A stretch of 59,359 nucleotides of DNA from an uncultured cyanobacterium (GTDB lineage Bacteria; Cyanobacteriota; Vampirovibrionia; Gastranaerophilales; Gastranaerophilaceae). Where the stretch lies: assembly GCA_945487905.1 (NCBI GenBank), contig CALYTW010000003.1, positions 1-59,359 on the forward strand. The letters run 5' to 3'. The translations under genes and the position numbers were made by a program. Every line of letters starts with the position of its first letter. Positions within the stretch are counted from its first letter, which is position 1. Below the pieces are notes generated by a model. It worked only from the letters and a program-made list of their open reading frames with translations, had not been told where the DNA came from and did no database searches. Below, piece after piece: positions 46,626 through 59,359 of this stretch.

Positions 46626-46702
46626 GGGAGCGTAGCTCAGCTGGTTAGAGCGCTTGCCTGTCACGCAAGAGGTCGCGAGTTCGAGCCTCGTCGTTCCCGC
46701 CA
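46626..46702 (+). tRNA. tRNA-Asp (anticodon GTC)
   Basis: A 77-base cloverleaf. The acceptor stem is GGGAGCG with CGTTCCC, the discriminator base is G and the 3' CCA is encoded. The D-arm is TAGCTCAGCTGGTTAGAGC, the anticodon arm CTTGC-CTGTCAC-GCAAG with GTC at its centre, and the T-arm carries TTCGAGC. The discriminator G and GTC fit aspartate. Its 3' part is the likely integration site of the element to its right. Confidence 0.95.
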
Positions 46703-48279
46703 TTATTAAAACACTTCTTAGGAAGTGTTTTTTTGTTAGTAAAATCAGTACTTTCAGACGGTTCGATAGTGGATTTTTTAAGTTCATGTTCTTTAGATAA
46801 TCTAAATAGAATGTCAAATGCTGGATGTAGCTCTACATCTAGCTTTCCGTCATAATATGTTGCGTTCGATAGTACAGTTTGAGTGATAAATCGCTTATCT
46901 TCAACTGTTCCGTTCATGAACATGTTGTATGAGTCCTTAGCAAATGCCAGTAATTTCTCGCATGTATCATAGAATTTAACATCAGCTTCATTTATTCTAT
47001 TTAGCTGTTCAATTAATTCAGCTTTTTCAGTATGGTACTCTTGATTTATCTTCTTCCAGAAATCTTCTTCGATAGTTCCATCACATCTGTCATCATAGGC
47101 TTGTCTTATGCGTTTGTTAAGCTGTTCAATTTTTCTGCTAATGTTAGCTTCTGCTTTCCCCTGATAATCATTCTTATCATCATGGATTTCTTTAATAAAG
47201 CTCTTTATTTCTTCTATCAACTCTCTTGAAACATGGAAACTCTTTAGAAATTCTGCCAATACCTTATCTATGCTTGTTTGAGAGATATAAGACAACTTCT
47301 TACAACCTTTTCTGTAAAAGTCATTACAGTGGTAGTATATGTATTGTTTACCACTTTTCTTTTTCTTCAATTCTGGTGTCAGCATACCGCCACAGATACC
47401 ACATTTAAACAATCCTTGATAAGGAAATTGAATATCATGAGTTCTTGTCCTTACAACACCACCTAAACGCTCTTGTATCGCATTAAATGTGCTTAGGTCA
47501 ATAATCCCTTCATGTTGTGCATTAGTACAGATAAATCCTTTGAACTCAAATTGTCCAATGTAAAAGATGTTCTTAAACATTCGTTCAATGGTAGATTTGG
47601 CTAACTTCTTCCCATTTCTATTAGTCAATCCCTGTGGGTACAACATATCGTTAATTGTTTTAGCCGAATAATTACCAGTTGCATACATTTCAAATGCTTT
47701 TCTTACAACAGCTCTTTTATCCTCATCAACAGCTATGATATGTTTCCCCAATTTGTCCATAGTATTATAATAACCAACTGGGGCAATAGAAGGATATACT
47801 CCGTCTTCTATCTTTGCTAATATGCCCTTTTCTGCTTCTTCTTTAAGATTATCTATATACTGTTTAGAAAGAACAACTCTTAAGCCATATATCATCTTAT
47901 CTTGGCTCTTTGACTTTTCTGATATAATAGAACCTTCTTTAACAAAATGTATCTCAAGTCCTTCAATTTCATCTAAATCAACAACATCTTTGAAGTTTCT
48001 TGTTATTCTATCTGTCTTTTCAACTAACAGCTTATTAACATCTTTATGTGATTTCAGATACTTGAGCATTAAATTAAACTGCTTACGACCAGATTTCTTG
48101 GCACTCATAGCTTCTCTAAAGAACTCAACAATTTCAAATCCTTCATCTTTAGCATATTTCCTTAGCAGTTTCTCTTGTGCAGAAAGAGAATATCCTCTTT
48201 CTTGTTCATGCGAGGACACCCTGATATAAATTACACACCTGTTAGTTTCAATAATTCCGCCAGATTTCTTCTTTACCAT
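46645..48279 (-). CDS. large serine recombinase (element integrase)
   Basis: A site-specific integrase of about 544 residues. The N-terminal resolvase domain has CVIYIRVSSHEQERGYSLSA (nucleophile Ser) and VEKTDRITRN. Next are the recombinase domain (about 165-270), a zinc ribbon CGICGGML with YHCNDFYRKGC, a coiled coil (about 385-450) and a C-terminal tail. I chose ATG 48279 with AAGGGG upstream; GTG 48288 is also open. Unusually, the last 35 or so residues are encoded across a terminator and the antisense strand of the tRNA-Asp gene, with the stop codon inside the tRNA. The tail is therefore probably derived from the chromosomal target after integration. Confidence 0.9.
   Translation of the reverse strand: MVKKKSGGIIETNRCVIYIRVSSHEQERGYSLSAQEKLLRKYAKDEGFEIVEFFREAMSAKKSGRKQFNLMLKYLKSHKDVNKLLVEKTDRITRNFKDVVDLDEIEGLEIHFVKEGSIISEKSKSQDKMIYGLRVVLSKQYIDNLKEEAEKGILAKIEDGVYPSIAPVGYYNTMDKLGKHIIAVDEDKRAVVRKAFEMYATGNYSAKTINDMLYPQGLTNRNGKKLAKSTIERMFKNIFYIGQFEFKGFICTNAQHEGIIDLSTFNAIQERLGGVVRTRTHDIQFPYQGLFKCGICGGMLTPELKKKKSGKQYIYYHCNDFYRKGCKKLSYISQTSIDKVLAEFLKSFHVSRELIEEIKSFIKEIHDDKNDYQGKAEANISRKIEQLNKRIRQAYDDRCDGTIEEDFWKKINQEYHTEKAELIEQLNRINEADVKFYDTCEKLLAFAKDSYNMFMNGTVEDKRFITQTVLSNATYYDGKLDVELHPAFDILFRLSKEHELKKSTIEPSESTDFTNKKTLPKKCFNNGGNDEARTRDLLRDRQAL
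46708..46734 (+). terminator. tRNA-Asp terminator inside the recombinase frame
   Basis: AAAACACTTC and GAAGTGTTTT form a perfect stem with a TTAG loop and a T tail, six bases after the tRNA CCA. The same bases are read in reverse as codons near the end of the recombinase. Confidence 0.8.
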
Positions 48280-48341
48280 AAGGAACACCCCTTACTTGTA
48301 TTGTATCACAAATAAGGGGTTCTGGCAGCTGTATGTTTCAT

Positions 48342-48503
48342 TTACATAGCTTTGTTATTCATTTCAACTAATTTATAAAGATACTTGGCTATCTGCTTTT
48401 TATTCTCCTCATCAGTTGTTTTTATAGTGGGCGAATGCACAATAACGGTTATGTTATCAACATTAAATGTGATGTCGGAATTGTTGTTATTTCTTTTTTT
48501 CAT
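48342..48503 (-). CDS. small basic/Asn-rich protein of the element
   Basis: A 53-residue frame starting MKKRNNNNSDITFNVDN and ending LYKLVEMNNKAM. It is supported by a near-perfect ribosome site (AAAAGGAGG) seven bases before ATG. It sits directly upstream of the recombinase on the same strand, 62 bases from its start. No family recognised. Small proteins next to integrases are often excisionase-like directionality factors, but the sequence shows no helix-turn-helix that I can identify. Its coding region contains the ATAACGGTTAT palindrome repeated upstream. Confidence 0.65.
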   Translation of the reverse strand: MKKRNNNNSDITFNVDNITVIVHSPTIKTTDEENKKQIAKYLYKLVEMNNKAM

Positions 48504-48558
48504 AGCGTAGCCTCCTTTTCTTTTGCGTGCTACGCACAGCTTGACAGGCTACGATAAC

Positions 48559-48583
48559 CAGAATAACGGTTATTGTTATTCTG
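48559..48583. promoter_or_regulatory. inverted repeat around ATAACGGTTAT
   Basis: CAGAATAAC and GTTATTCTG flank a seven-base centre. The inner ATAACGGTTAT also occurs at 48442-48452, inside the small gene. A related pair, AAACTGTTAT and ATAACAGTTT, lies at 48643-48670. Possible operator upstream of the small gene and recombinase; no protein can be assigned. Confidence 0.4.
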
Positions 48584-48594
48584 AAAATTTAGGT

Positions 48595-48627
48595 GCAAAA
48601 AACAGCTACTATCATTGAATAGTAGCC
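48595..48627 (-). terminator. terminator of the restriction-modification operon
   Basis: On the minus strand GCTACTAT and ATAGTAGC pair around six bases, followed by a T run before 48595. It lies after the stop of the 329-residue gene and should end the mod-res-X transcript. Confidence 0.7.
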
Positions 48628-48668
48628 GTATTACAATTTAGAAAACTGTTATTCTGGTAAATAACAGT

Positions 48669-49658
48669 TTAGTCTTCCCAGATATTTGTTATTATGTAGC
48701 AATTTAGAAATTTATCGTATTTCATAAGTGGCTTATCAGAACCGCTAATCTCTTTATATTGCTGATTAAGACGGTTTACTGCTGTTGTGAGTTCTCCCAT
48801 TCCACAGTATAATTTATTTCTTCGGTCTTCTCCTATTAAATCTTCTTTATAGATTTCATAGTTCTTAGCAGGTGCATATCGTTTAATATAGTCGTAAAGG
48901 TCTTGTACGCTTGGGGCAAAGTGTGTTCTTCGTTTACTCTTACTCTGTTTAATTTGTGGCTTCTGCTTCTTTGTGTCTTCAACAAAGTCGAAACAATCAA
49001 TAATACATTTAAAATCAATAACCTCACTATCTTCATTCAGCTTGATATTAGCCTTGTGAAGCATTATTGTTTCTTTAATAATTCCGTAACAAATAGGTTT
49101 AATGTATTTAATGTCATTAACATGGAAATACGACAAGTTGTATTTATCTGCTGTTAATACACCCAGTAAATTTTTTTCGTGAGCTTCCTTTAGCAACATA
49201 TTTTCATAATCATTAACAAGGTCATCAACTTCATAGCGTGTATAATAACTGGTTAATGCTTGTATTAATTTATCGGTATCATCTATTGATAATGTTAGTT
49301 TATATCCGTCATCTTCTTTCTTGGCACAAAGTGTCCAACTATTAGAACCACAATATATCTCTTTATTGTTTTCTTTACTATTCACTAATGATGATACTGT
49401 ATTTTCTGCGACAAGTTCTTCTATGTCTTCACCGTCATATATTTCATCTGATTGTTTATCTTCATTGTCTTCATAATCATAGTAGTAGTAAGCAAAGGCA
49501 TTTCCCATGCTTTCAAACAATTTAATCGTTTCAGAAAGTTGGTCTTCTGTTTTTACTTTCCATACGACATCTCCGTACATTGCAGAAACAAGCATTGCCA
49601 TAACCTTATTAGGTATGTCATCATTAAAGACTTCAAGTAATGCTTTTTCTACTATCAT
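48669..49658 (-). CDS. unknown third gene of the type III R-M operon
   Basis: Not recognised; 329 residues. The N-terminal part begins MIVEKALLEVFNDDIPNKVM and has a Tyr/Asp/Glu-rich acidic stretch (about 57-85, with YYYYDYEDNED). The middle is mixed alpha/beta (VSSLVNSKENNKEIYCGSN). A basic linker (about 235-247, KQKPQIKQSKSKRRT) leads to a C-terminal region of about 85 residues, DLYDYIKRYAPAKNYEIYKED, that could be a winged helix. No nuclease or ATPase motif. It starts 26 bases after the res stop codon with a TGGAGT ribosome site and is followed by a terminator, so it is co-transcribed with mod and res. A role in the system, such as control, anti-restriction or an added defence function, is plausible but unproven. 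Confidence 0.7.
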   Translation of the reverse strand: MIVEKALLEVFNDDIPNKVMAMLVSAMYGDVVWKVKTEDQLSETIKLFESMGNAFAYYYYDYEDNEDKQSDEIYDGEDIEELVAENTVSSLVNSKENNKEIYCGSNSWTLCAKKEDDGYKLTLSIDDTDKLIQALTSYYTRYEVDDLVNDYENMLLKEAHEKNLLGVLTADKYNLSYFHVNDIKYIKPICYGIIKETIMLHKANIKLNEDSEVIDFKCIIDCFDFVEDTKKQKPQIKQSKSKRRTHFAPSVQDLYDYIKRYAPAKNYEIYKEDLIGEDRRNKLYCGMGELTTAVNRLNQQYKEISGSDKPLMKYDKFLNCYIITNIWED

Positions 49659-49684
49659 GTGTACTCCAGTAATTATTTTATTTA

Positions 49685-52279
49685 TTATAGCTTACTCATA
49701 GCTTCGTTAAATTGAGCTTGTCTATCGGCAACATTAAAGAATGGGAATCCTACTATCTTATAATTGTTATCATCTATAAGTGTTTTAACTGGTCTCCCGG
49801 ATTCTTCAATTTGTAATAAAAATTCTTCTTTCCATGTGTCTTTATCAATAAGGTGTGAACCTTTAGGTTCAATAAATATCTGGTATTGGTCTGTAATGTT
49901 ACCTTCTTGTTTTGTCATAACAAGAACATAGTCTGGTTCAAAGCGTTCTCCACCATTAAATGAGAATAATTTTAACTGTCTTTCATTCCTTATTAGATAA
50001 ACCTTATCATATTTGTTCTTTAAGTCTTGTACGTGGTCTTTGAAGTATGCAACAAACTCTTTTTCTTCACTTGTTCCATAGTTATCGGTAAATACAAACC
50101 AATCCTCATTAGAAAGATTAACCTTCAAGTGTTCTGATATTGCACCATTTGATTGCGATACACCTTGACCGTCTCCATGAGGGTCTGTGTAACTTACGGT
50201 CTTATCTCTGAATACTTCACATAATTTTCTAGGCTTAAATTCCTTTGTTCCTTCGTAAGTTTCTTCAATGTCTGAGATTCTATTTGATATTTTACCTAAA
50301 GTATATTTCAAGGCTAAATATAACTGTTCATTAGTAATATCAGATTCACTAATTCTTATACTCAGCTTGATATTCCCTAAATACTTAGAATCCGTTATGA
50401 ATTGTTTAATTGATGTTAGATTAGGATAATATTGTTTAAGTATATTGAATTTAAAAATATTATACTGTCTTAAAGCCTTATGCACGATAGGATAAGGAAT
50501 ATTAGAAATAACAAATTCTTTCAAGATTCCTCTTTCTCCTGTGCTTGTGTCATCTGCTGAAGTTTCCAATAAGGTAGTTGTGCTTGAAGCACCTGCTGAT
50601 AGGTCGTAACTATATATTGTATCTCTGACAGACGGTAAAAGTTCAGTTATTGTATTTCTTGATTTAACAGCTCTTTCATTTTCAAAGATTAAACCATGTT
50701 TATATAGGTTATCATTCTTGAAGTCTTCTTTAAGGATATAAGAACATTCTTTAATGTTATCTGGCATTAATCCTATACCTCTCATAGCTGTTGTAAGTTC
50801 TGAGATATATGTGGAATTATTCATACAATGATAATAGAGAGTTTCACAAACTCTTAATTCATTTTCTATATCTTCATCAAACTTACGCAAGAATCTTTCT
50901 GCTTTATCCGTAGTCGTAAATGGACAATATCTCGCACCACGACCTATTAACTGAGCTTCTTGAATAGTTTGTTTTCCCGGACCGCCATGTCTTTCTGCAC
51001 TTCTTGTTTCATAAAGTCTAACTATATCAAACAAGTTAAGAACATCCCAACCCTCATTTAATTGGTCAACAGCAAAGATACAGCGAATCAGATTGTTTCT
51101 GTCTTCTAAAGAGTTAATCTGTAATTGATAATTTCCCTTTTCTTCTTTACTGTTTACTGAAACACATTTCTCATCTGAAAAGTCTTCTCTGATTTCTGCA
51201 ATCAGTTCCTCTGTTGTTAAATGTTTATCAAAGTATTCAAACATCTTAACAAGTAATGGATGACTATTCTGTGTTCTAATCCTTGTTAAATCTGCTTCTG
51301 ATAGGTTTTCAATAAGCGGTCTGAATTGTTCTTTATAGAAACTTTTACTTGAATCTATCTTATCACTTTTAAATAAGATTACAGGCTTAATGGTTTTCTT
51401 ATTATCTTGAAACAGCTTCAATCTGTACTGACTTAATAGTATTGCTTGTAATACTCTGTCAATTAAAGGTACATGAGATTGAAAAGTCTTAACTTCCTTT
51501 GAATAGCGGTCTTCTCTAAACTTTCTTAAAGGATAGTCTATTATAATTTTTTTCTCGTATGAGGTTTTAATGTATGTATTTTTCAAATCACAAGTTGCCG
51601 TAAATTCAAGTAATACATTATCTCTATCGGAATTAAATATTCTATTAACTGTTGTTTCCCAGTTACTTTTGTCTTCTTTCTCCGATTTAGATAAACCTTT
51701 TTTAGTCTCTATATTAAGGTGGTGTGCTTCGTCAGCTATCAATACAATTTTCTTTTCTGCAAAGTCATCATCAGTCAAACCATTCTCTTTGAACTGATTA
51801 AGACTCATGTGTAATCCTTGAATAGTAGTAAAACAAATGTTAATGTCTTCTTGATTGCAACCTTGAAAGTTATCTACTGTGCGAACCTTTATAATTTCAC
51901 CGTCAATGTTGATTTCATCATTAAACAAGTATTTACTAGAAGTCTGGTTAATAAAGTTATCCTTAGTCTTTTGAACAATGTTATCTGTATTAACAAAGAA
52001 TAAGAAATTCCTATAACCCTTCTTGTACAGATATAAGATTAAACCCGCCATTATAAGAGTCTTACCGCTACCTGTTGCCATGTGAAATAGCACTTGTGTA
52101 GGTTTATGACATTTTTCACTTTCAAAGTATGTTATAAAGTTTCTAAAAGCTAGTTCTTGATATGGTCTGATAGAATATTTCTGAGTAAGGTTCTTTGTTA
52201 CATACTTAGGTAATTCCTTGTATGCTTCTGGTGCAAACTCTCTAAGTGCCTTTATATCCTCGAATAAGAATGTTCCCAT
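49685..52279 (-). CDS. type III restriction enzyme, Res subunit
   Basis: The helicase-nuclease subunit of a type III system (864 residues); with Mod it translocates or slides on DNA and cuts near an unmethylated site. Walker A ATGSGKT (68-74), the DEAH-type box IADEAHHL, CIFAVDQLNEGWDVLN (motif V) and EAQLIGRGARYCPF (motif VI) define the superfamily 2 core. At the C-terminus FEPDYVLVMTKQ followed by YQIFIEPKGSHL is a PD-ExK nuclease site. All key residues appear intact. It starts two bases after the mod stop codon with its own GAGGGTG ribosome site. Confidence 0.94.
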   Translation of the reverse strand: MGTFLFEDIKALREFAPEAYKELPKYVTKNLTQKYSIRPYQELAFRNFITYFESEKCHKPTQVLFHMATGSGKTLIMAGLILYLYKKGYRNFLFFVNTDNIVQKTKDNFINQTSSKYLFNDEINIDGEIIKVRTVDNFQGCNQEDINICFTTIQGLHMSLNQFKENGLTDDDFAEKKIVLIADEAHHLNIETKKGLSKSEKEDKSNWETTVNRIFNSDRDNVLLEFTATCDLKNTYIKTSYEKKIIIDYPLRKFREDRYSKEVKTFQSHVPLIDRVLQAILLSQYRLKLFQDNKKTIKPVILFKSDKIDSSKSFYKEQFRPLIENLSEADLTRIRTQNSHPLLVKMFEYFDKHLTTEELIAEIREDFSDEKCVSVNSKEEKGNYQLQINSLEDRNNLIRCIFAVDQLNEGWDVLNLFDIVRLYETRSAERHGGPGKQTIQEAQLIGRGARYCPFTTTDKAERFLRKFDEDIENELRVCETLYYHCMNNSTYISELTTAMRGIGLMPDNIKECSYILKEDFKNDNLYKHGLIFENERAVKSRNTITELLPSVRDTIYSYDLSAGASSTTTLLETSADDTSTGERGILKEFVISNIPYPIVHKALRQYNIFKFNILKQYYPNLTSIKQFITDSKYLGNIKLSIRISESDITNEQLYLALKYTLGKISNRISDIEETYEGTKEFKPRKLCEVFRDKTVSYTDPHGDGQGVSQSNGAISEHLKVNLSNEDWFVFTDNYGTSEEKEFVAYFKDHVQDLKNKYDKVYLIRNERQLKLFSFNGGERFEPDYVLVMTKQEGNITDQYQIFIEPKGSHLIDKDTWKEEFLLQIEESGRPVKTLIDDNNYKIVGFPFFNVADRQAQFNEAMSKL

Positions 52280-52281
52280 AT

Positions 52282-54306
52282 CTATACACCCTCACTATAG
52301 AAACTTCTTGCAAAGGCTTTTTCTTCTTCAGTTACAGCAAGGTCTTCATCTTCCATATCACAGTAATTAACATATAACAAGTTTTTATCTAATACTTGAA
52401 TTAAGAAACTACGCTTGTCTTCTGTTGATAGTTCTTTGAAGTCTTGTTCTGATTCTTTAAGTTTGTTTATATCTGCTTTATAGCTTATAAATTCAGAATC
52501 TGTGATTTCTTTATACAAGTCATTTAACTTATTATCATCTGCAACTTGTATTTCATCTATATACTTGTGGTTAAGTTCCTTTAATTCACAATAAACAAAA
52601 CTTCCACCGCCATGCCAGTTGACAGATTTAGAAATACCACCTTGTTCACCACTTAACACATTTATAAGTCTTACAAGGCTGTCATTGTCATTATAATTAA
52701 GTTGCTCAATACCTATATACTGCCTATTTAATTTATGTGCAACAGCACAGGTTGTTCCACTTCCTACATGAAAGTCTAAAACAATGTCTGATTCTTTTGT
52801 TGCCAATTCAATAATTCTTCTTAATAGTTTTTCAGGCTTCTTACCATTTTTTAATTGAACTCCACCTTCCTTTGCAATACCGTCCCAACTTATGTCTTGC
52901 CATAAATCAGTTAGTAATTCTGTTGAAGTTGGTGTTCCGTCTATGTTCTTGACCTTCTTAGAATAGAATGATAATGCTCCCCCATTAATAACATATCCTT
53001 GTTCTTCACCATCAGATTTATTGTAAACAAACACTTTATCTCTCTCTGTCTTAGAACGTTCCATAAGGGCTTTTAATTCTTGTGTTGGTTTTTGAGGGTC
53101 TCTAATACTTACAACTCTATTAGCATTCTGTAAAGCAAATTCAGCAATTAGAGAATCCCTTATAATTTTCCAATAATCGCCCCATTTAGCTTGTGCGTTT
53201 TTCGCTGCTTGTTGCCATGTGCTTCCAAGTTCAATACCATTCATTTTGTATATAACATTATATAGCTTTTCTAATTTCCAATTCTCTGGATTATCATCTG
53301 GATTTTCAATATATAAGTCATAATTAGAGTCGTAGCTTGTTGGTACATACATTTTCTTAAAGTCAAAACAATTTCTATCTTTAGCATAGAATAGTATGTA
53401 TTCAGTTACATCTATTGGACCGGGATTTACCGTCTTAAAACCCGCAGGAGAAGCTGTTTTAACAGAGATTATCTGTACTAAATTATTCTTTCCAAAGATT
53501 TCATCTAACAAAGGTATCAAGTAACCTAATTCATGATAATCAATTTGTACGAACAAGCCCCCTTCTTTGCTTAAAAGGTTATACGCTTGTATAATTCTAT
53601 TACGCATGAATACCAACCAACTTGAATGGTTAAAGTTATCATTGTAGTTAAAACTATCACTACCAGTATTGTATGGTGGGTCTATGTATATGCACTTTAC
53701 TCTACCCTCATATCTTTTTAATATTGATGATAATGCAAGTAAGTTATTTCCTTTAATTAAAAGATTATCTTTGTCATCAAATTCAGTTATACTGTCTTCT
53801 CCGTCTTTAGTATATCTTTTCATATTAGTAAATACTTTAGGTGCAAGAAGTCTATCAACATCATCTGGTGCAAGCAATTCATTATAGAATATTTCTCCTC
53901 TTTTCTGGTCTTCCTTAGTTTGACCACCTTCTAATACACAGTCTTTATAAGGGAACGATAGTACAACGTCATTTTTAGAAGAAATGAATTGTTCCTTGCT
54001 ATCTATTAAACCGATAGTATTCTTAAATCTTGTATATGAATCTTGAAGAAATGCCTTGTTATTTATAGCCCAACCAAATGCAGTTTTATCAAATACTAAT
54101 GTTCCGTCGATATCCGTAAAGAACTTTTCTTTCATTCTATCATTGGATAAAAGTAACTTAATCAAATCTTTATCCATTTTCATAGCACACTCATAGACTT
54201 TATTTCTCAATAAGTCTTTACCGTTATCAGCATAGAATCTCTTTTCAGGGTCTTGTTCTAACAATTCTAATAATTCAAAATAAAATCCTTTTCTTTCTTC
54301 TGTCAT
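52282..54306 (-). CDS. type III DNA adenine methyltransferase, Mod subunit
   Basis: It recognises the target sequence and methylates adenine on one strand (674 residues). The catalytic DPPYNTGSD (about 209-217) comes before the S-adenosylmethionine loop LDFHVGSGTTCAVAHKL (about 510-526), the order of beta-class enzymes typical of type III Mod. The region between the motifs (about 270-480) is the expected target-recognition domain. I chose ATG 54306 with AAAGGA upstream; the frame runs to 54372 but those codons overlap the promoter. First gene of the mod-res-X operon. Confidence 0.94.
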   Translation of the reverse strand: MTEERKGFYFELLELLEQDPEKRFYADNGKDLLRNKVYECAMKMDKDLIKLLLSNDRMKEKFFTDIDGTLVFDKTAFGWAINNKAFLQDSYTRFKNTIGLIDSKEQFISSKNDVVLSFPYKDCVLEGGQTKEDQKRGEIFYNELLAPDDVDRLLAPKVFTNMKRYTKDGEDSITEFDDKDNLLIKGNNLLALSSILKRYEGRVKCIYIDPPYNTGSDSFNYNDNFNHSSWLVFMRNRIIQAYNLLSKEGGLFVQIDYHELGYLIPLLDEIFGKNNLVQIISVKTASPAGFKTVNPGPIDVTEYILFYAKDRNCFDFKKMYVPTSYDSNYDLYIENPDDNPENWKLEKLYNVIYKMNGIELGSTWQQAAKNAQAKWGDYWKIIRDSLIAEFALQNANRVVSIRDPQKPTQELKALMERSKTERDKVFVYNKSDGEEQGYVINGGALSFYSKKVKNIDGTPTSTELLTDLWQDISWDGIAKEGGVQLKNGKKPEKLLRRIIELATKESDIVLDFHVGSGTTCAVAHKLNRQYIGIEQLNYNDNDSLVRLINVLSGEQGGISKSVNWHGGGSFVYCELKELNHKYIDEIQVADDNKLNDLYKEITDSEFISYKADINKLKESEQDFKELSTEDKRSFLIQVLDKNLLYVNYCDMEDEDLAVTEEEKAFARSFYSEGV

Positions 54307-54355
54307 GATTCGTCCTTTGGTTATAGCTATACCCATATTAACAAATCTTAACATT

Positions 54356-54383
54356 ATTATAAAGAACGGCAATCATACATTAA
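54356..54383 (-). promoter_or_regulatory. promoter of the mod-res-X operon
   Basis: On the minus strand TTAATG (54383-54378), a 16-base spacer and TATAAT (54361-54356) lie about 50 bases before the mod ATG. It lets the operon be expressed apart from the upstream XRE gene. Confidence 0.5.
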
Positions 54384-54400
54384 TAGGATTTCAGAGGGTA

Positions 54401-54712
54401 TTACATTAAGTCTATCATATTGTTAATGCGTATTAATTTATCAAGATTACAAGTACATAATTTATTGTTTATCAATTCTATAATCTTAGCTATATCTTTC
54501 TCTGGTTCTGGTAACAATAATTCAACAGGGGAAATGTTAAATACATCACATACTTTATCAACCGTTTCTGCTGTTGCTTGATACTTGTTATGTTCAAGGT
54601 TTCTATATCCTTGAACACTCATGTTAATTTTCTCGGCAAATTGTTCCTGTGTAAGTTTCTTACTTACACGCAGTCTTTTTATGCCACCATTAATCATTTC
54701 TTGATAACTCAT
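54401..54712 (-). CDS. XRE-family helix-turn-helix regulator
   Basis: About 103 residues. The N-terminal HTH domain contains KRLRVSKKLTQEQFAEKINM and VQGYRNLEHNKYQATAETVDKVCDVFNI, the Cro/C1 pattern. The C-terminal 35 residues are helical with CTCNLDK. I chose ATG 54712 (MSYQEMINGGIKRL); a GTG at 54727 is also open. It lies just upstream of mod on the same strand, the usual place for a control (C) protein of a restriction-modification system, and is divergent from the SLOG-like gene. TGTAACAAA (54734-54742) lies in its upstream region. Confidence 0.85.
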   Translation of the reverse strand: MSYQEMINGGIKRLRVSKKLTQEQFAEKINMSVQGYRNLEHNKYQATAETVDKVCDVFNISPVELLLPEPEKDIAKIIELINNKLCTCNLDKLIRINNMIDLM

Positions 54713-54757
54713 AACTATTATTCTCACTTATCTTGTAACAAATTAAAACTAATCATA

Positions 54758-54787
54758 TAGACAAGCAGGTACTACTTATAGTATGCT
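54758..54787 (+). promoter_or_regulatory. promoter of the SLOG-like gene
   Basis: TAGACA (54758-54763), 18-base spacer, TATGCT (54782-54787), about 25 bases before the ATG at 54812. It overlaps the divergent upstream region of the XRE gene. Confidence 0.4.
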
Positions 54788-54811
54788 TTGACTGTTATAA
54801 GGACAGTATGA

Positions 54812-55255
54812 ATGGACGGTAAAACTTGTTTCTTAATGGGTAATAGACACACACCTAGCAATATAAGAGAACCGCTTGCGGAAGCGGTTGAAACGCATAT
54901 TGCTGAATATGGAGTAACAACATTTACAGTAGGTCGTTACGGTGCGTTTGATAGTATGGCTAGAGAGGTGCTGAGAGAGGCTAAGAAGCAACATAATGAC
55001 ATTGAACTATATTTACTTACCCCTTACGCATTGACACAGAAAATAGACACTCCAGAGGGCTTTAATGGAACATTTTACCCAGACGGTCTGGAGAAAGTAC
55101 CGTTAAGGCTTGCCATTCCACAGGCTAACAGGTATATGGTGCAGAACTCCAATTATTTAATAACATACTGTCATCACATAGGAAACACCAGAAACATTGT
55201 TGAGTACGCCCAGAAACGAGAGAAAAAGGGCTTAATAAAGGTAACTTTGCTATAA
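54812..55255 (+). CDS. SLOG-like Rossmann-fold protein
   Basis: A 147-residue protein. TCFLMGNRHTP at the start, FTVGRYGAFDSMAREVLREAK and YLITYCHHIGNTRNIVEYAQKREKKG fit the SLOG/LOG-like nucleotide-binding fold (the group including DUF1273, YpsA and DprA-related proteins). SLOG proteins in mobile elements and defence loci are proposed to sense or make nucleotide-derived ligands; the ligand here is not known. The last residues match the family pattern. AAGGAC ribosome site. It diverges from the XRE regulator. Confidence 0.7.
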   Translation: MDGKTCFLMGNRHTPSNIREPLAEAVETHIAEYGVTTFTVGRYGAFDSMAREVLREAKKQHNDIELYLLTPYALTQKIDTPEGFNGTFYPDGLEKVPLRLAIPQANRYMVQNSNYLITYCHHIGNTRNIVEYAQKREKKGLIKVTLL

Positions 55256-55262
55256 TAAAGAG

Positions 55263-55402
55263 TGTCAATAAATTTATAAATTCTTTATACACTAAATTTA
55301 GTCAGATTTAAGGTTGTTGGCAAATGTCTAACAATAACCGAAAACCCTTGCTATTATTGAAAGAGAAGAAAATGCTGCGGAATGTAACAAATGTCAATAA
55401 AT
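55263..55402. repeat. separated TGTCAATAAAT direct repeat
   Basis: TGTCAATAAAT occurs at 55263-55273 and again at 55392-55402, the second next to TGTAACAAA. It lies in the 224-base gap between the SLOG-like gene and the next operon. A 44-codon frame within this gap runs over the promoter and is unlikely to be real. Confidence 0.35.
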
Positions 55403-55416
55403 GTAAGATGATTTTC

Positions 55417-55454
55417 TTGACAAATAACATGTTATCGGTTATACTAATAGTATA
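55417..55454 (+). promoter_or_regulatory. strong promoter with two embedded palindromes
   Basis: TTGACA (55417-55422), a 17-base spacer and TATACT (55440-55445). A perfect palindrome ATAACATGTTAT (55424-55435) fills the spacer, and TATACT-AAT-AGTATA (55440-55454) is a second inverted repeat covering the -10 box. This looks like a repressed promoter for the three genes that follow. Confidence 0.75.
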
Positions 55455-55479
55455 AGGTACAAAACAAAAGGAGATAACA

Positions 55480-55761
55480 ATGAGAAACAATGAAATCAGA
55501 ACCGCAGTAGCAGAACTTCAAGAACTTTATGCACAAGCAGATACCATTAAGGCATTGATAGTTGAACGTGAAAGTGCTATCAAAGACGAAATGGACGCTA
55601 GAGAAATTGAAACTTTGGACTTGGGAAATTGTGTGATTCGTTGGACTTCACAAGTAGCAGACAGAATCATGACTCGAGATGTAAAGGAATACCTAAAGTC
55701 AATGAATGTTTTAGATAAGTTTATTAAGTCAGTTTATTCAAAGAGATTTAGCATAGCATAG
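55480..55761 (+). CDS. small phage/plasmid-type hypothetical protein
   Basis: A 93-residue protein of a kind common in mobile elements. An N-terminal helical hairpin (AVAELQELYAQADTIKALIVERES) precedes a small beta segment (IETLDLGNCVIRWTSQ) and a basic tail (YLKSMNVLDKFIKSVYSKRF). No enzyme motif. First gene behind the strong regulated promoter, with AAAGGAG eight bases before ATG. Followed 37 bases later by the small resolvase. Confidence 0.7.
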   Translation: MRNNEIRTAVAELQELYAQADTIKALIVERESAIKDEMDAREIETLDLGNCVIRWTSQVADRIMTRDVKEYLKSMNVLDKFIKSVYSKRFSIA

Positions 55762-55798
55762 GGCATTTGCCCTACTGCTATTGCAGGAGGATTAAGTA

Positions 55799-56488
55799 AT
55801 GGAAGAATACAAAGCAGAATACTATTGTTATATCCGCTGCAGTACCGTCCAACAGAGTTATAATAGACAGTACAAGCAACTTTTAGACTTTTGCCAAAAA
55901 GAGAATATTAAGATTAACCCTGCAAATATATATAGTGAAAAACGGACCGGGAAAAATCAAGACCGTCCGAAGTTTAAGGAACTTGTGCAATTATTACTTG
56001 ACCGAGAGGCAAAGGGCATACATTGCTGTCTTTGCCTAATCGAGTTAAGTAGAATGAGCAGGAGTTACCAATTAACCAAAGATACATGGAACACATTAAC
56101 GAGTGCGGGGGTTGATATTGTAGTTACATCATTCCCTTTATTAGATACACGGAAAAAGGATAATGGGGCAGTTAATTTAATGCTGACTGATATTGTCTTT
56201 GCGGTTCTTAATTATTTAACGGAGCAGGAACTCAACGAGAAAGCCGATAGGTGCAATAATGGTCGTGAGGTTGCCAAAAATAAAGGTGTTAAGTTTGGCA
56301 GGAAAGAATTAACTATTAAAGACCTACCTAAAGAGTTTATTGACGTGATGAAATCCGCAACGGGTTCAGAAACAAAAACCGCTTTACTTGACTCTGTGAA
56401 TGGTAAGTTAGTCAGAATGAACAAGAAACCATTATCAAGAGGCACTTTCTACAATTACATGGAACTGTATAAAGGTGTTGTAAAATGA
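55799..56488 (+). CDS. small serine recombinase (resolvase/invertase family)
   Basis: A 229-residue site-specific recombinase. The catalytic Ser is in YCYIRCSTVQQSYNRQ, the Arg residues in LIELSRMSRS, and FAVLNYLTEQELNEKADRCNNG is the long helix joining to the DNA-binding region. The C-terminal part (SRGTFYNYMELY) has a short helix-turn-helix look. It may resolve dimers of a circular form or invert DNA; no crossover site could be assigned. AGGAGG ribosome site. It overlaps the next gene at ATGA. Confidence 0.88.
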   Translation: MEEYKAEYYCYIRCSTVQQSYNRQYKQLLDFCQKENIKINPANIYSEKRTGKNQDRPKFKELVQLLLDREAKGIHCCLCLIELSRMSRSYQLTKDTWNTLTSAGVDIVVTSFPLLDTRKKDNGAVNLMLTDIVFAVLNYLTEQELNEKADRCNNGREVAKNKGVKFGRKELTIKDLPKEFIDVMKSATGSETKTALLDSVNGKLVRMNKKPLSRGTFYNYMELYKGVVK

Positions 56489-56736
56489 ATGACAAACAGG
56501 TGCAGGACTTAATCAGAGGTCAATTTCTCAATCAAATGATTTTTCGCATAATGGACAATGCGAGGGCAAATCGGGGCAGGGTTCAGCAGGGGCAACAGGT
56601 TCAATGCGTTCATCAAGTGCCGTTAATCGTGGATATTGTGTGCGGTGCAGTTATACTCTTTTGGGTTGTGGTGCTAGGTGGTACTTTATTATTGTCAATT
56701 CTCGGACTTATTATGCTAGTTTTCAATATTAGTTAG
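56485..56736 (+). CDS. small membrane protein
   Basis: An 83-residue protein with a polar N-terminal half (about 1-45, rich in Gln, Asn and Arg) and a hydrophobic C-terminal segment long enough for one or two spans (VDIVCGAVILFWVVVL then GTLLLSILGLIMLVF). It starts inside the end of the resolvase (overlap of 4 bases) and is therefore translationally coupled. Function unknown. Confidence 0.65.
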   Translation: MNDKQVQDLIRGQFLNQMIFRIMDNARANRGRVQQGQQVQCVHQVPLIVDIVCGAVILFWVVVLGGTLLLSILGLIMLVFNIS

Positions 56737-56915
56737 GTCGTGTGCCGCAGTCTGTAAACTCCGTAGCACTCATAAAAAAGTTGGTAGGCATATAACCATG
56801 AAAAATCGCTTTAAAGGTAAAATGCTTCTATCGGTGCAAATGTCTTTATTTATAAGGGTTTTGGCGGTCAATGTATAAGGGAACGTTTGTTGTGGTAGGG
56901 GTTCGCATGCCTGCA

Positions 56916-56952
56916 TTACCCACTATGTCCGTATATCAGACAATGTGGGTAA
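56916..56952. other. hairpin in the resolvase-side intergenic region
   Basis: TTACCCAC and GTGGGTAA form an eight-base stem, extended imperfectly by ATGTC and GACAAT, around a 15-base centre. It lies in the 270-base gap 56737-57006 between convergent units; no gene is supported in that gap. It may be a terminator without a T tract, or a recombination or nicking site. Confidence 0.4.
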
Positions 56953-57006
56953 AATAAGGGATATGAAAAGAGGGGAGTTTAACATTCTCCTATACTGTAA
57001 TTGAGG

Positions 57007-57207
57007 CTATTTTTTATCTAGTCCGGGCAACAATTTCTTCATATATGCTGCACGAACTTTACTATGTAATTTTTCTGCCTTTTCAGTTGGTGTGGGAGGT
57101 GTAGCAACTCTGCTAACCTTTATTACACCGTCTTTGTGCTTTTCTTCATAATCCTTTAGCACTTGAAGTGCTATTTTTTCAACAAGATTCTTTTCTTCTT
57201 CTTTCAT
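57007..57207 (-). CDS. small charged hypothetical protein
   Basis: A 66-residue protein rich in Lys and Glu. An acidic then basic helix (KEEEKNLVEKIALQVLKDYEEK) is followed by a Pro/Thr linker (ATPPTPTEKAE) and a basic C-terminus (KLHSKVRAAYMKKLLPG). A good AGAGGG ribosome site supports it. It lies about 100 bases downstream of the larger gene at 57307-58629 on the same strand and may share its message. Confidence 0.6.
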   Translation of the reverse strand: MKEEEKNLVEKIALQVLKDYEEKHKDGVIKVSRVATPPTPTEKAEKLHSKVRAAYMKKLLPGLDKK

Positions 57208-57306
57208 GATATTTCCCTCTTTCTTTATTTAAAATCTAATTTTACACACGCTAGGATGACCGTTAAGGCGGTTAAAATAAATTCTAGGTATATTTAACCT
57301 GTCTTT

Positions 57307-58629
57307 TTAGCGTGCGTCTATCTCTGCGTTTGCTTTTAAAAATGCCTCGCTCGGTATAAACTTCTTTGCTTTGGGGTTCGGTGGAGTAGGTTCATCAAGT
57401 TCATCATCAGATGATGTATTTGATGATTCTTCTCCGGGCTCTTCATCATCAAGGTTAAAATAATCCGTTTGTTTTGGTTGTTGGAATTTATATAATCTGA
57501 ATGACAATAGGTTATTATTTCGGATGTCCTCAACTGTTACAGTATTATCATTATCCGGGTTAGCAAATGGGCGAACTGCTTGATATTTCTCTAGTATAGA
57601 AAAATAAGTTTTTAGCCTGTCTGCTGCGTCTGATAAGGTTCTTATTTTAATTTCCGATAGTTTAAGTAACTCTTTTGTTTTAATGTTGATAAAATAAGGT
57701 TTCTTAGGATTGTTATTAAAATTGCGTACTATAAAGTAAAGAATGAATTTATGGTTATGGGGGGTTATATCATTTACCAATTCTAAAGGTACTTTTGTGT
57801 ATGGTGGTCTTGATAAATTGCCCATGAATGTATCTGAATATGTTAGTTTATAATATTCATTCTCAATGTTATATTCGTTTAGCATGCCTGTGGAACAGGC
57901 AAGGTCAAGAAAGTTTTTAACGGCATTAGAATTGTTATTTTGGTTACGGAAGTAGTCCGGGAGGACTGCAAGTATATCCTTAGAGGATATGTAGCACTCA
58001 TTCCGCTTGTGTTTGGTGATAGAGGATTTTTCCGCTATGAATAGCAATGTACAATATAACTTGAAGTGCTTAAAATCTTTAAATCTCATATCATTATTGA
58101 GTGCCTTTGCGTATAAATAGAAACTTGGATGTTTCATAGCATATTCAAAATAAAACAAGTTGTTTGGTTTACTATCAACAGTATCGGCAAACAGACCGCA
58201 AAGCGGTTCAATTGCCGGGGTTGTTGTTTCTTTTGGTTTTTCTTCCTGTTTCTTTTTAGGCTTTTGGCGGTGGAAGATGTTAATGTTATCGGAATATTTC
58301 AGGTCAATTATACTTGTCAATTCATATTCACCATTGGGGTTGGGTACATCTTTGTTTAAGATAATGAAATCACGCAATTTTTGGTTCTTTGTACCTGCAA
58401 ATAATATAATGTATTTAATGCCGTTTACGGCAATGTAGCCAATATTCGGCACTTTAGAATACCACATGTCAAAAGCTGCGTCGCTATTGATTTTACATAG
58501 GCAATAAGGTAATTCAACCTTTAATGGTAACGACTTCAAAGGATGTATTGATTCCGCCTCTTTTAATGTATCGGTTATTGTTTTAATATTCAACTGTTTT
58601 AGTTGTAGTAGGATTTCTGATTTGAACAT
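57307..58629 (-). CDS. possible replication initiator-like protein of the element
   Basis: Not confidently assigned; 440 residues. The N-terminal 110 residues are mixed alpha/beta (YIAVNGIKYIILFAGTKNQ), a Lys/Glu/Pro linker follows (about 120-140), and the central part (about 165-380) looks like two winged-helix units (FKLYCTLLFIAEKSS; KFILYFIVRNFNNNPKKPYF), as in plasmid Rep proteins. The tail is acidic and Pro/Ser-rich. A TATAAT lies six bases before the ATG with no ribosome site, suggesting a leaderless message. The next upstream spacer carries a nested hairpin cluster (58834-58888) that could be an origin. The replication role is a guess from this context. Confidence 0.55.
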   Translation of the reverse strand: MFKSEILLQLKQLNIKTITDTLKEAESIHPLKSLPLKVELPYCLCKINSDAAFDMWYSKVPNIGYIAVNGIKYIILFAGTKNQKLRDFIILNKDVPNPNGEYELTSIIDLKYSDNINIFHRQKPKKKQEEKPKETTTPAIEPLCGLFADTVDSKPNNLFYFEYAMKHPSFYLYAKALNNDMRFKDFKHFKLYCTLLFIAEKSSITKHKRNECYISSKDILAVLPDYFRNQNNNSNAVKNFLDLACSTGMLNEYNIENEYYKLTYSDTFMGNLSRPPYTKVPLELVNDITPHNHKFILYFIVRNFNNNPKKPYFINIKTKELLKLSEIKIRTLSDAADRLKTYFSILEKYQAVRPFANPDNDNTVTVEDIRNNNLLSFRLYKFQQPKQTDYFNLDDEEPGEESSNTSSDDELDEPTPPNPKAKKFIPSEAFLKANAEIDAR

Positions 58630-58635
58630 ACTAAT

Positions 58636-58641
58636 ATTATA
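58636..58641 (-). promoter_or_regulatory. extended -10 box six bases before the ATG at 58629
   Basis: Minus-strand TGGTATAAT followed by ATTAGT and ATG. The transcript start would fall on or next to the start codon. Confidence 0.55.
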
Positions 58642-58734
58642 CCATGCAAATGTTGAAAAAGATGTAATATTTGTAAGAAATAGTGTAGTAATATATGGGG
58701 GTATTATATAAACAATGCAGTCAAAATTAAAAAT

Positions 58735-58764
58735 AGTGCATGTAACTATTTTCTATAATGCACT
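58735..58764. other. AGTGCAT/ATGCACT inverted repeat
   Basis: AGTGCAT (58735-58741) and ATGCACT (58758-58764) form a seven-base stem around a 16-base centre, in the 281-base gap upstream of the 440-residue gene. No gene is seen in this gap. Confidence 0.35.
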
Positions 58765-58833
58765 AGGCATAAGCAAAAATAGGATTTTTTAACTTACTTA
58801 TAAGCAGTGCCTTTATAATACTAATTTATTTAA

Positions 58834-58888
58834 TACAACCCCTCCCCCGACACTGGGGGGAGGCAAGGAACGCTTTCCTTTTGTTGTA
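58834..58888. other. nested cruciform-like structure
   Basis: An outer stem TACAAC (58834-58839) with GTTGTA (58883-58888) encloses two hairpins: CCTCCCCC with GGGGGAGG (58841-58863) and AAGGAA with TTCCTT (58865-58880). This three-way junction stands out for its GC content in AT-rich DNA. It may be the terminator of the gene at 58911, or a replication or transfer origin. Confidence 0.5.
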
Positions 58889-58910
58889 CGGTTCATTTTG
58901 TTTAAGTCAA

Positions 58911-59309
58911 TCATCCGCACTGTCTAGCCTTTGTCAGGCTGTCCTGATACCGCCTAATGATTTCCTCGTAGAAATACTTAACGAATCTTTCTTCGGTATC
59001 ATCTGAATAAGGTTCGTCAAATGTATCTAGTAGTGCTATATTGATGTAATGACTGAATGGCAGGTGATGTTGGCATGCCTGTATTTTCAATCTGTCAAAA
59101 ATGTCATCACTTATATCAACGTGCTTTAATTTAAGCGGTCCGGGCGGGGCTGATACATCTGAATACCTTTTGTTGTTTTCGGCAATGTACCACAATAACG
59201 CAGGTACAAGACTTTTTAGTGTAACATGATATGTGCAGGCAATCGTTTTTAATTTGTACTGCACTTGGGGGGTTAAATATACACCCTTACTTGAATTTGT
59301 ACGTGTCAT
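58911..59309 (-). CDS. duplicated ribbon-helix-helix-like protein
   Basis: A 132-residue protein with two similar segments of about 37 residues: GVYLTPQVQYKLKTIACTYH (about 9-45) and HVDISDDIFDRLKIQACQHH (about 63-98), each a short strand followed by two helices as in ribbon-helix-helix DNA-binding proteins such as CopG/MobC types. A Pro/Gly linker (SAPPGPLKLK) joins them, and a helical, charged tail follows. A single chain could mimic an RHH dimer. It may regulate plasmid-like functions or serve in mobilisation. A TAGGAG ribosome site is present, and a -10-like TATAAT on the minus strand is at 59335-59330. Confidence 0.6.
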   Translation of the reverse strand: MTRTNSSKGVYLTPQVQYKLKTIACTYHVTLKSLVPALLWYIAENNKRYSDVSAPPGPLKLKHVDISDDIFDRLKIQACQHHLPFSHYINIALLDTFDEPYSDDTEERFVKYFYEEIIRRYQDSLTKARQCG

Positions 59310-59359
59310 TTTCTTCTTTCTCCTATTAAATTATAGTTATACCAGATTGAAACAACTCA

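Follow-up and report, generated by a model that had tools for sequence, protein, structure and literature searches.

The stretch of DNA analysed here (the window) is contig C3, 59,359 bases long, from a genome of 1.66 Mb in 115 contigs. A gene for a large serine integrase ends inside a tRNA-Asp gene on the opposite strand, at the near end of an integrated element that reaches the end of the contig. The features of this junction were as follows.

46626..46702, plus strand: tRNA-Asp (GTC), the integration target; called by ARAGORN and the sole full-length match in its own genome.
46645..48288, minus strand: large serine integrase gene, 547 aa as listed, in its integrated form; from the open reading frame list and Pfam.
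46645..46647, minus strand: integrase stop codon, supplied by the host tRNA D-loop as the antisense of TTA; at the same position in relatives.
46648..46695, minus strand: host-derived tail NDEARTRDLLRDRQAL, antisense tRNA in place of the circular-form C-terminus; the tail tracks the host tRNA allele in relatives.
46679..46684, plus strand: tRNA T-loop GTTCGA, putative zinc-domain motif of the attB half-site; from relatives and the rule of PMC3783163.
46697..46704, no strand: att core CCGCCATT at the tRNA 3' end, within which the crossover would fall; common to the near and far ends of seven related elements, putative in the window.
46708..46731, plus strand: element-borne tRNA terminator, the antisense of which forms integrase linker codons; from the terminator scan, the fold and relatives.
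46705..59359, no strand: integrated element of at least 12.65 kb, reaching the contig end; a homologous element of 11.5 kb is present in G076.

The integrase frame on the minus strand had been predicted to terminate within tRNA-Asp, and the coordinates and the ARAGORN call agree with this. Its stop is drawn from a D-loop in which TTA stands within GGTTA. The start used in some relatives (MVKKK) is equivalent to position 48279 in the window. Pfam domains Resolvase, Recombinase and Zn_ribbon_recom (PF00239, PF07508, PF13408) all scored above their curated cut-offs, and the integrated form retains a whole catalytic domain (residues 19-164). In the predicted structure of a full-length relative, a coiled-coil insertion was formed by two long helices (339-386 and 392-443). 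The C-terminus reads ...CFNNGGNDEARTRDLLRDRQAL up to the stop codon (over a longer stretch of the tail, ...KKTLPKKCFNNGGNDEARTRDLLRDRQAL). Its last 18 residues, GGNDEARTRDLLRDRQAL, are the antisense of the tRNA (codons 46648-46701), and the codons that precede them are the antisense of the terminator hairpin, an exact match to the original description. This hairpin (46708-46731) was matched in the terminator scan and folded at -11.4 kcal/mol (z -3.8). Across positions 46703-46740 one DNA serves, on opposite strands, as tRNA terminator and as integrase linker, so that terminator sequence and protein linker must coevolve.

Further into the element, these genes were annotated.

48669..49658, minus strand: 329-aa protein with no Pfam or PADLOC match; a 343-aa protein is in the same place beside the integrase in G076.
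49685..52279, minus strand: type III restriction enzyme, cargo (PADLOC REase_III, 1.7e-125).
52282..54372, minus strand: type III methyltransferase, cargo (PADLOC MTase_III, 1.3e-187).
54401..54727, minus strand: HTH regulator (Pfam HTH_3).
55799..56488, plus strand: small resolvase-type recombinase (Pfam Resolvase).

The homologous element of G076 carries a related type III restriction-modification pair. A search of the window's own genome for the far end of its element, using the near-end DNA, the CCGCCATT core (43 matches, part of them inspected) and the tail profile, yielded nothing convincing. The C67 and C41 matches were inspected and rejected as this far end.

Close relatives of the integrase (53-93% identity) were found in MAGs named Candidatus Gastranaerophilales or uncultured bacterium. 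The stop codon was located 58 nt inside the tRNA-Asp 3' end in 12 of the 14 relatives fetched by protein similarity (L148-L161) and also in G018 and G097; every full-length relative that ends in tRNA-Asp has its stop 58 nt from the tRNA 3' end. Because the position is identical in those 12 and in G018 and G097, an integrase ending inside a tRNA is not a product of chance. Relatives that have an identical sequence before the core (...STIEPPETQSESIKKAPEGANFKNGG) differ in their endings by the host tRNA-Asp allele, NGG being followed by NDEARTRDLMRDRHAL, TDEARTRDLLRDRQAL or DDGYRTRDLLRDRQAL. The terminators fell into sets: that of the window is nearly the one of a relic in G005, a second is common to G076, G102, L151 and L161, and a third to G011 and L158. 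The terminator sequence tracks the integrase across hosts, even across different tRNA bodies (G037, L151, L161). Since the tail follows the tRNA allele and the terminator follows the integrase, the crossover was placed at the tRNA 3' end and the terminator was assigned to the element. The original prediction had derived both the tail and the terminator from chromosomal target DNA. This stands for about the last 16 residues, which track the host tRNA allele, and falls for the terminator, as an identical terminator accompanies an identical integrase across different hosts. A terminator belonging to the element had been named as something that would undo the idea of a host-derived tail; the terminator does belong to the element, yet all that this changes is the length of the host-derived part, which comes down to about 16 residues.

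Both ends were present on one contig in seven elements of 3.5 to 11.5 kb (L149, L150, L151, L152, L156, L158, L161). At each of the seven far ends the sequence is ...GGTTCGATATAAGACGCATTATTTCCGCCATT or a variant of it, and a different terminator comes next. Far-end flanks were compared with the sequence that follows intact tRNA-Asp elsewhere. The majority of those tested matched intact tRNA-Asp loci of other genomes (L189, L192 and L197 matched G028; L195 matched G017; L186 matched G021; L150 matched G008), and a few, L151 among them, had no match among these loci. The comparison with empty sites, proposed at the outset as a check, thus gave flanks that correspond to the sequence directly after intact tRNA-Asp in other genomes and are the displaced host terminators. 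In these relatives the host's own terminator is displaced to the far end of the element, and the terminator beside the tRNA arrives with the element. It is barely credible that the crossover lies beyond the terminator, with the terminator and the whole tail chromosomal as first supposed. Such a crossover would accommodate G010:C30, in which tRNA-Asp is followed by a G076-type terminator with no integrase after it, but is contradicted by the tracking of integrase by terminator across hosts and tRNA bodies and by the second, host-like terminator at far ends. The crossover beyond the terminator that G010 suggests was rejected; the likeness of G010 covers only the first 50 bp past the tRNA, and an element remnant is the best reading of it.

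A degenerate mini-element with a broken integrase end and a broken far tail was found in G005 (L074 / L103; G005:C9 63789-64178), at a partial tRNA-Asp 3' fragment. This suggests that a tRNA fragment may be usable as an integration target. A dispersed repeat containing GAGTTCGGCGGATTTGCGGACGGACGAC-like sequence adjoins tRNA genes in many genomes of the genus; sites include L068:18652-18830 (G076, upstream of tRNA-Asp) and positions downstream of tRNA terminators in L115, L106, L098 and L009:740-1010. Immediately upstream of intact tRNA-Asp, G076 has a truncated copy of the 5' end of that gene, with repeat-related sequence after it.

A rule proposed from the structure of an A118-family integrase places the zinc-domain motif 5 bp further outward in attP than in attB (PMC3783163). 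In the tRNA half-site the T-loop GAAC stands at a fixed distance from the core. The T-loop motif is 12 bp from the core in the attB half and 17 bp from it in the attP half of relatives. GAA[C/T] was found at exactly +5 bp outward in 11 of 14 attP halves of relatives (8 of 9 groups); the attP halves of the tRNA-Ala group had no GAA[C/T] motif at +5. The shift supports the assignment of the att sites. The constant spacing between an unvarying T-loop motif and the 3' end also suggests how one integrase family may reach many tRNA genes.

When the near end was joined to the far end at the core, the integrase frame continued without a stop for exactly 38 codons after NGG in 7 of 7 elements; NGG was followed by NNASYIEPYILKLQQQLADKCSTKLIYMLNLWAVRKVA and a stop in one example and by NYVANIERFLDRLKVQLSEQHSQKVIFMLKFLKERKIA and a stop in another. 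The prediction that the circular form encodes a different C-terminus was borne out by these joins. A tail profile was used to search 286 genomes of the order, yielding about 19 strong copies, of which only one, in a tandem array (G244 = L156), was contiguous with an integrase ORF. The integrase frame of the far-end tail had 0 stops in 11 of 11 distinct copies, and the other five frames had 26-51 stops each. Pooled pN/pS of the same 11 copies was about 0.46, with the closest pairs near 0.2. Identity among tail copies drops to about 0.3, which is background, right past the stop codon. By these measures the far-end tail is coding sequence that is in frame with the rest of the gene only in a circle or a tandem array; purifying selection acts on the far-end tails, and the position of their stop is fixed. 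A tail swap on integration is near certain in the relatives, judging from both of their ends. In the window element, whose contig ends before the far end, we infer the same swap. Tandem arrays with a second element at the same tRNA were observed in L156 (L156:1-1401), L151, L175 and L185, so that the outer integrase would regain a circular-type tail from the far end of the inner element.

Integrases at 30-45% identity were found to end antisense in tRNA-Glu, Asn, Gly, Val, Ser, Gln, Ala, His and tmRNA. The ORFs of 62 more family members stop in or at antisense tRNA-Arg, Asn, Ala, Asp, Ile, Val, Gly, Gln, Pro, Leu or tmRNA. Circular tails were obtained for several target groups beyond the first tRNA-Asp group. 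The Asn, Arg, Ala, Ile, His, second Asp and second Asn groups were recovered by core match plus terminator; for the Arg tail the core match was just 9 nt, but this tail has an identical, contiguous counterpart in L256. A tmRNA-type integrase was contiguous with its tail amid phage genes (RecT, exonuclease, helicase loader and endolysin; G075).

Several further arrangements were recorded in the family. The G075 integrase, at L177:10102-11685 (G075:C1), is full-length and still joined to its circular-form tail in a phage region with no tRNA nearby, and the same region encodes a protein resembling reverse transcriptase (L177 17841-18962). Elements at tRNA-Ala and tRNA-Ile (L270, L272, L273, L275-L278, L281-L284) have two large serine recombinases, of which the additional one lies immediately upstream and has an end that is FRKIRKR-like and not in a tRNA. 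The C-termini of L244, L255, L262, L263, L265, L266, L267 and L271 run into sequence that was not recognised as tRNA (e.g. ...YPSEVDSRIKY) and have no [VIA]A end. These ends could be unrecognised targets or decayed sites.

Circular tails were 15-39 residues long and differed in sequence between groups, and 25 of 27 ended in [V/I/A]A; as group members are related, the group count of 8 of 10 is the safer one. The exceptions were one tail ending KSA and one (tRNA-Ile, L278) that reads into a tRNA fragment. Ends of this type were found in 1.7% of 1,071 background proteins and in 0 of 62 integrated tails. Past the core, tails of the Asn, Arg, Ala and Ile groups are only 15-17 aa and have little in common except [VIA]A; those of the Asp and tmRNA-like groups are 38-39 aa and conserved along their entire length. 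That the alternative C-terminus is a conserved coding sequence with a common [VIA]A end, in a design that is family-wide, had been missed in the original prediction. Proteolysis tags of the ssrA type are characterised by a free C-terminus of the kind LAA, LVA or IAA. A tmRNA tag of this lineage, GNNVIKADFGRAAALAA, ends LAA. The best reading of the tail sequences is that integration would cut an ssrA-like degron off the integrase; [VIA]A is a short motif and [V/I]A differs from classical LAA, which counts against a degron. The predicted tail structure consisted of two helices at low confidence (pLDDT 49-60), with the last residues disordered. Such predicted disorder would be expected for a degron and is not proof of one. 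Given the low-confidence two-helix model, the 38-aa tails may do more than carry a degron.

If the swap is real and the circular tail is instead a docking or architecture module (for synapsis, directionality-factor binding or dimerisation), loss of the tail would bias the enzyme against integration or toward excision. We regard this as rather unlikely. The Asp and tmRNA-like tails, with their full-length conservation and two predicted helices, would suit such a module, and in serine integrases it is the C-terminal part that controls directionality (PMC3783163). The short Asn, Arg, Ala and Ile tails, with almost only [VIA]A in common, fit a C-terminal signal better than a domain. It is less probable again that the swap is a by-product, in which attP overlaps the int end by chance, the enzyme can do without its C-terminus and nothing in its regulation depends on the antisense-tRNA tail. 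The conserved Pfam domains do stop well ahead of the tail, and antisense tRNA tails of varied sequence and length are all tolerated, but a by-product would leave unexplained both the purifying selection on far-end tails with a fixed stop position and an unusual C-terminal dipeptide common to different groups.

Serine integrases show strict directionality, which is normally explained by a separate directionality factor. The degron mechanism favoured here starts from what the sequences of relatives show: attP lies within the 3' end of the element's own integrase gene. In a circle or tandem array, int runs across attP into the opposite element end and encodes the conserved tail ending [V/I/A]A. 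Integration at the tRNA 3' end (core CCGCCATT) detaches this tail and adds about 16 antisense-tRNA residues with a stop in the D-loop, and the element brings a new terminator for the tRNA, the DNA of which also provides the integrase linker codons. The circle would then yield a short-lived integrase, through an ssrA-like degron; integrase made from the integrated copy would be stabilised, awaiting a directionality factor. Through the swap, re-integration of an excised element would be limited and the enzyme tied to the state of the element. For target choice the zinc domain would read the tRNA T-loop, of which the attP half-site would hold a copy 5 bp further out. This proposal as a whole (attP inside int, tail swap at integration, and a circular tail that is or contains an ssrA-like degron) is judged fairly likely. 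Counting against it are the L278 tail with its tRNA fragment, the tail ending KSA, the tRNA-Ala group with no motif at +5, and several family members with unassigned ends (L244, L255, L262-L267). The wider claim of a widespread family of tRNA/tmRNA-targeting serine integrases, in which the enzyme's own recombination acts as a protein-stability switch with an antisense-tRNA cap and zinc-domain reading of the universal T-loop sets the target range, is evenly balanced in our judgement.

Integration-dependent immunity systems use a tyrosine integrase, and the domains found here are those of a serine recombinase. In those systems a viral repressor carries an ssrA-like tag that is removed by integration, and Int also has a proteolysis signal (PMC4557955, PMC9635641, PMC6109161). 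The tagged repressor is a precedent for an ssrA-like tag that integration takes away (PMC4557955). No report was found of integration removing the Int proteolysis signal in integration-dependent immunity. Mycobacteriophages BPs and Brujita (PMC4557955, PMC6109161, PMC9635641) resemble the present elements in having attP in coding sequence near a 3' end. The split gene in BPs and Brujita is the repressor, whereas here attP lies in int itself, and the serine integrase alters its own end and takes up host-encoded residues. Self-disrupting recombinases have been described as exclusively archaeal tyrosine enzymes (PMC8371274). Archaeal SSV-type suicidal integrases (PMC8371274) likewise have the recombination site inside their own gene, with the 3' part separated by integration; they are tyrosine recombinases that lose the catalytic domain, whereas the bacterial serine integrase described here keeps it and is altered only at its extreme C-terminus. 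The A118/LI integrase (PMC3783163) has the same domain order, and its zinc-domain motif is likewise displaced by 5 bp between attP and attB, but the family here targets tRNA/tmRNA 3' ends antisense and has attP within int. In ICEKp1, integration displaces the tRNA terminator, and int expression depends on the integration state (PMC13023037); the switch there is a promoter, whereas here it would be the protein C-terminus, plus a replacement terminator brought by the element. The open-access literature yielded no account of a serine integrase exchanging its own C-terminus, which is weak evidence of absence.

A reaction of this kind would rewrite its own catalyst and form a built-in record of the element's integration state. 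It would make the enzyme a bacterial serine counterpart of the self-disrupting recombinase, with the catalytic domain kept. For genome engineering, an integrase sequence taken from an integrated copy may end in a C-terminus that is not the right one, and its integrated origin would then show in an antisense-tRNA tail such as GNDEARTRDLMRDRHAL.

IMG/VR was scanned with two integrases and gave no relatives. Among public phages and plasmids, all relatives were under about 30% identity. Two faecal phage records carried an integrase that likewise ends in a tRNA, tRNA-Glu in one and tRNA-Leu in the other.
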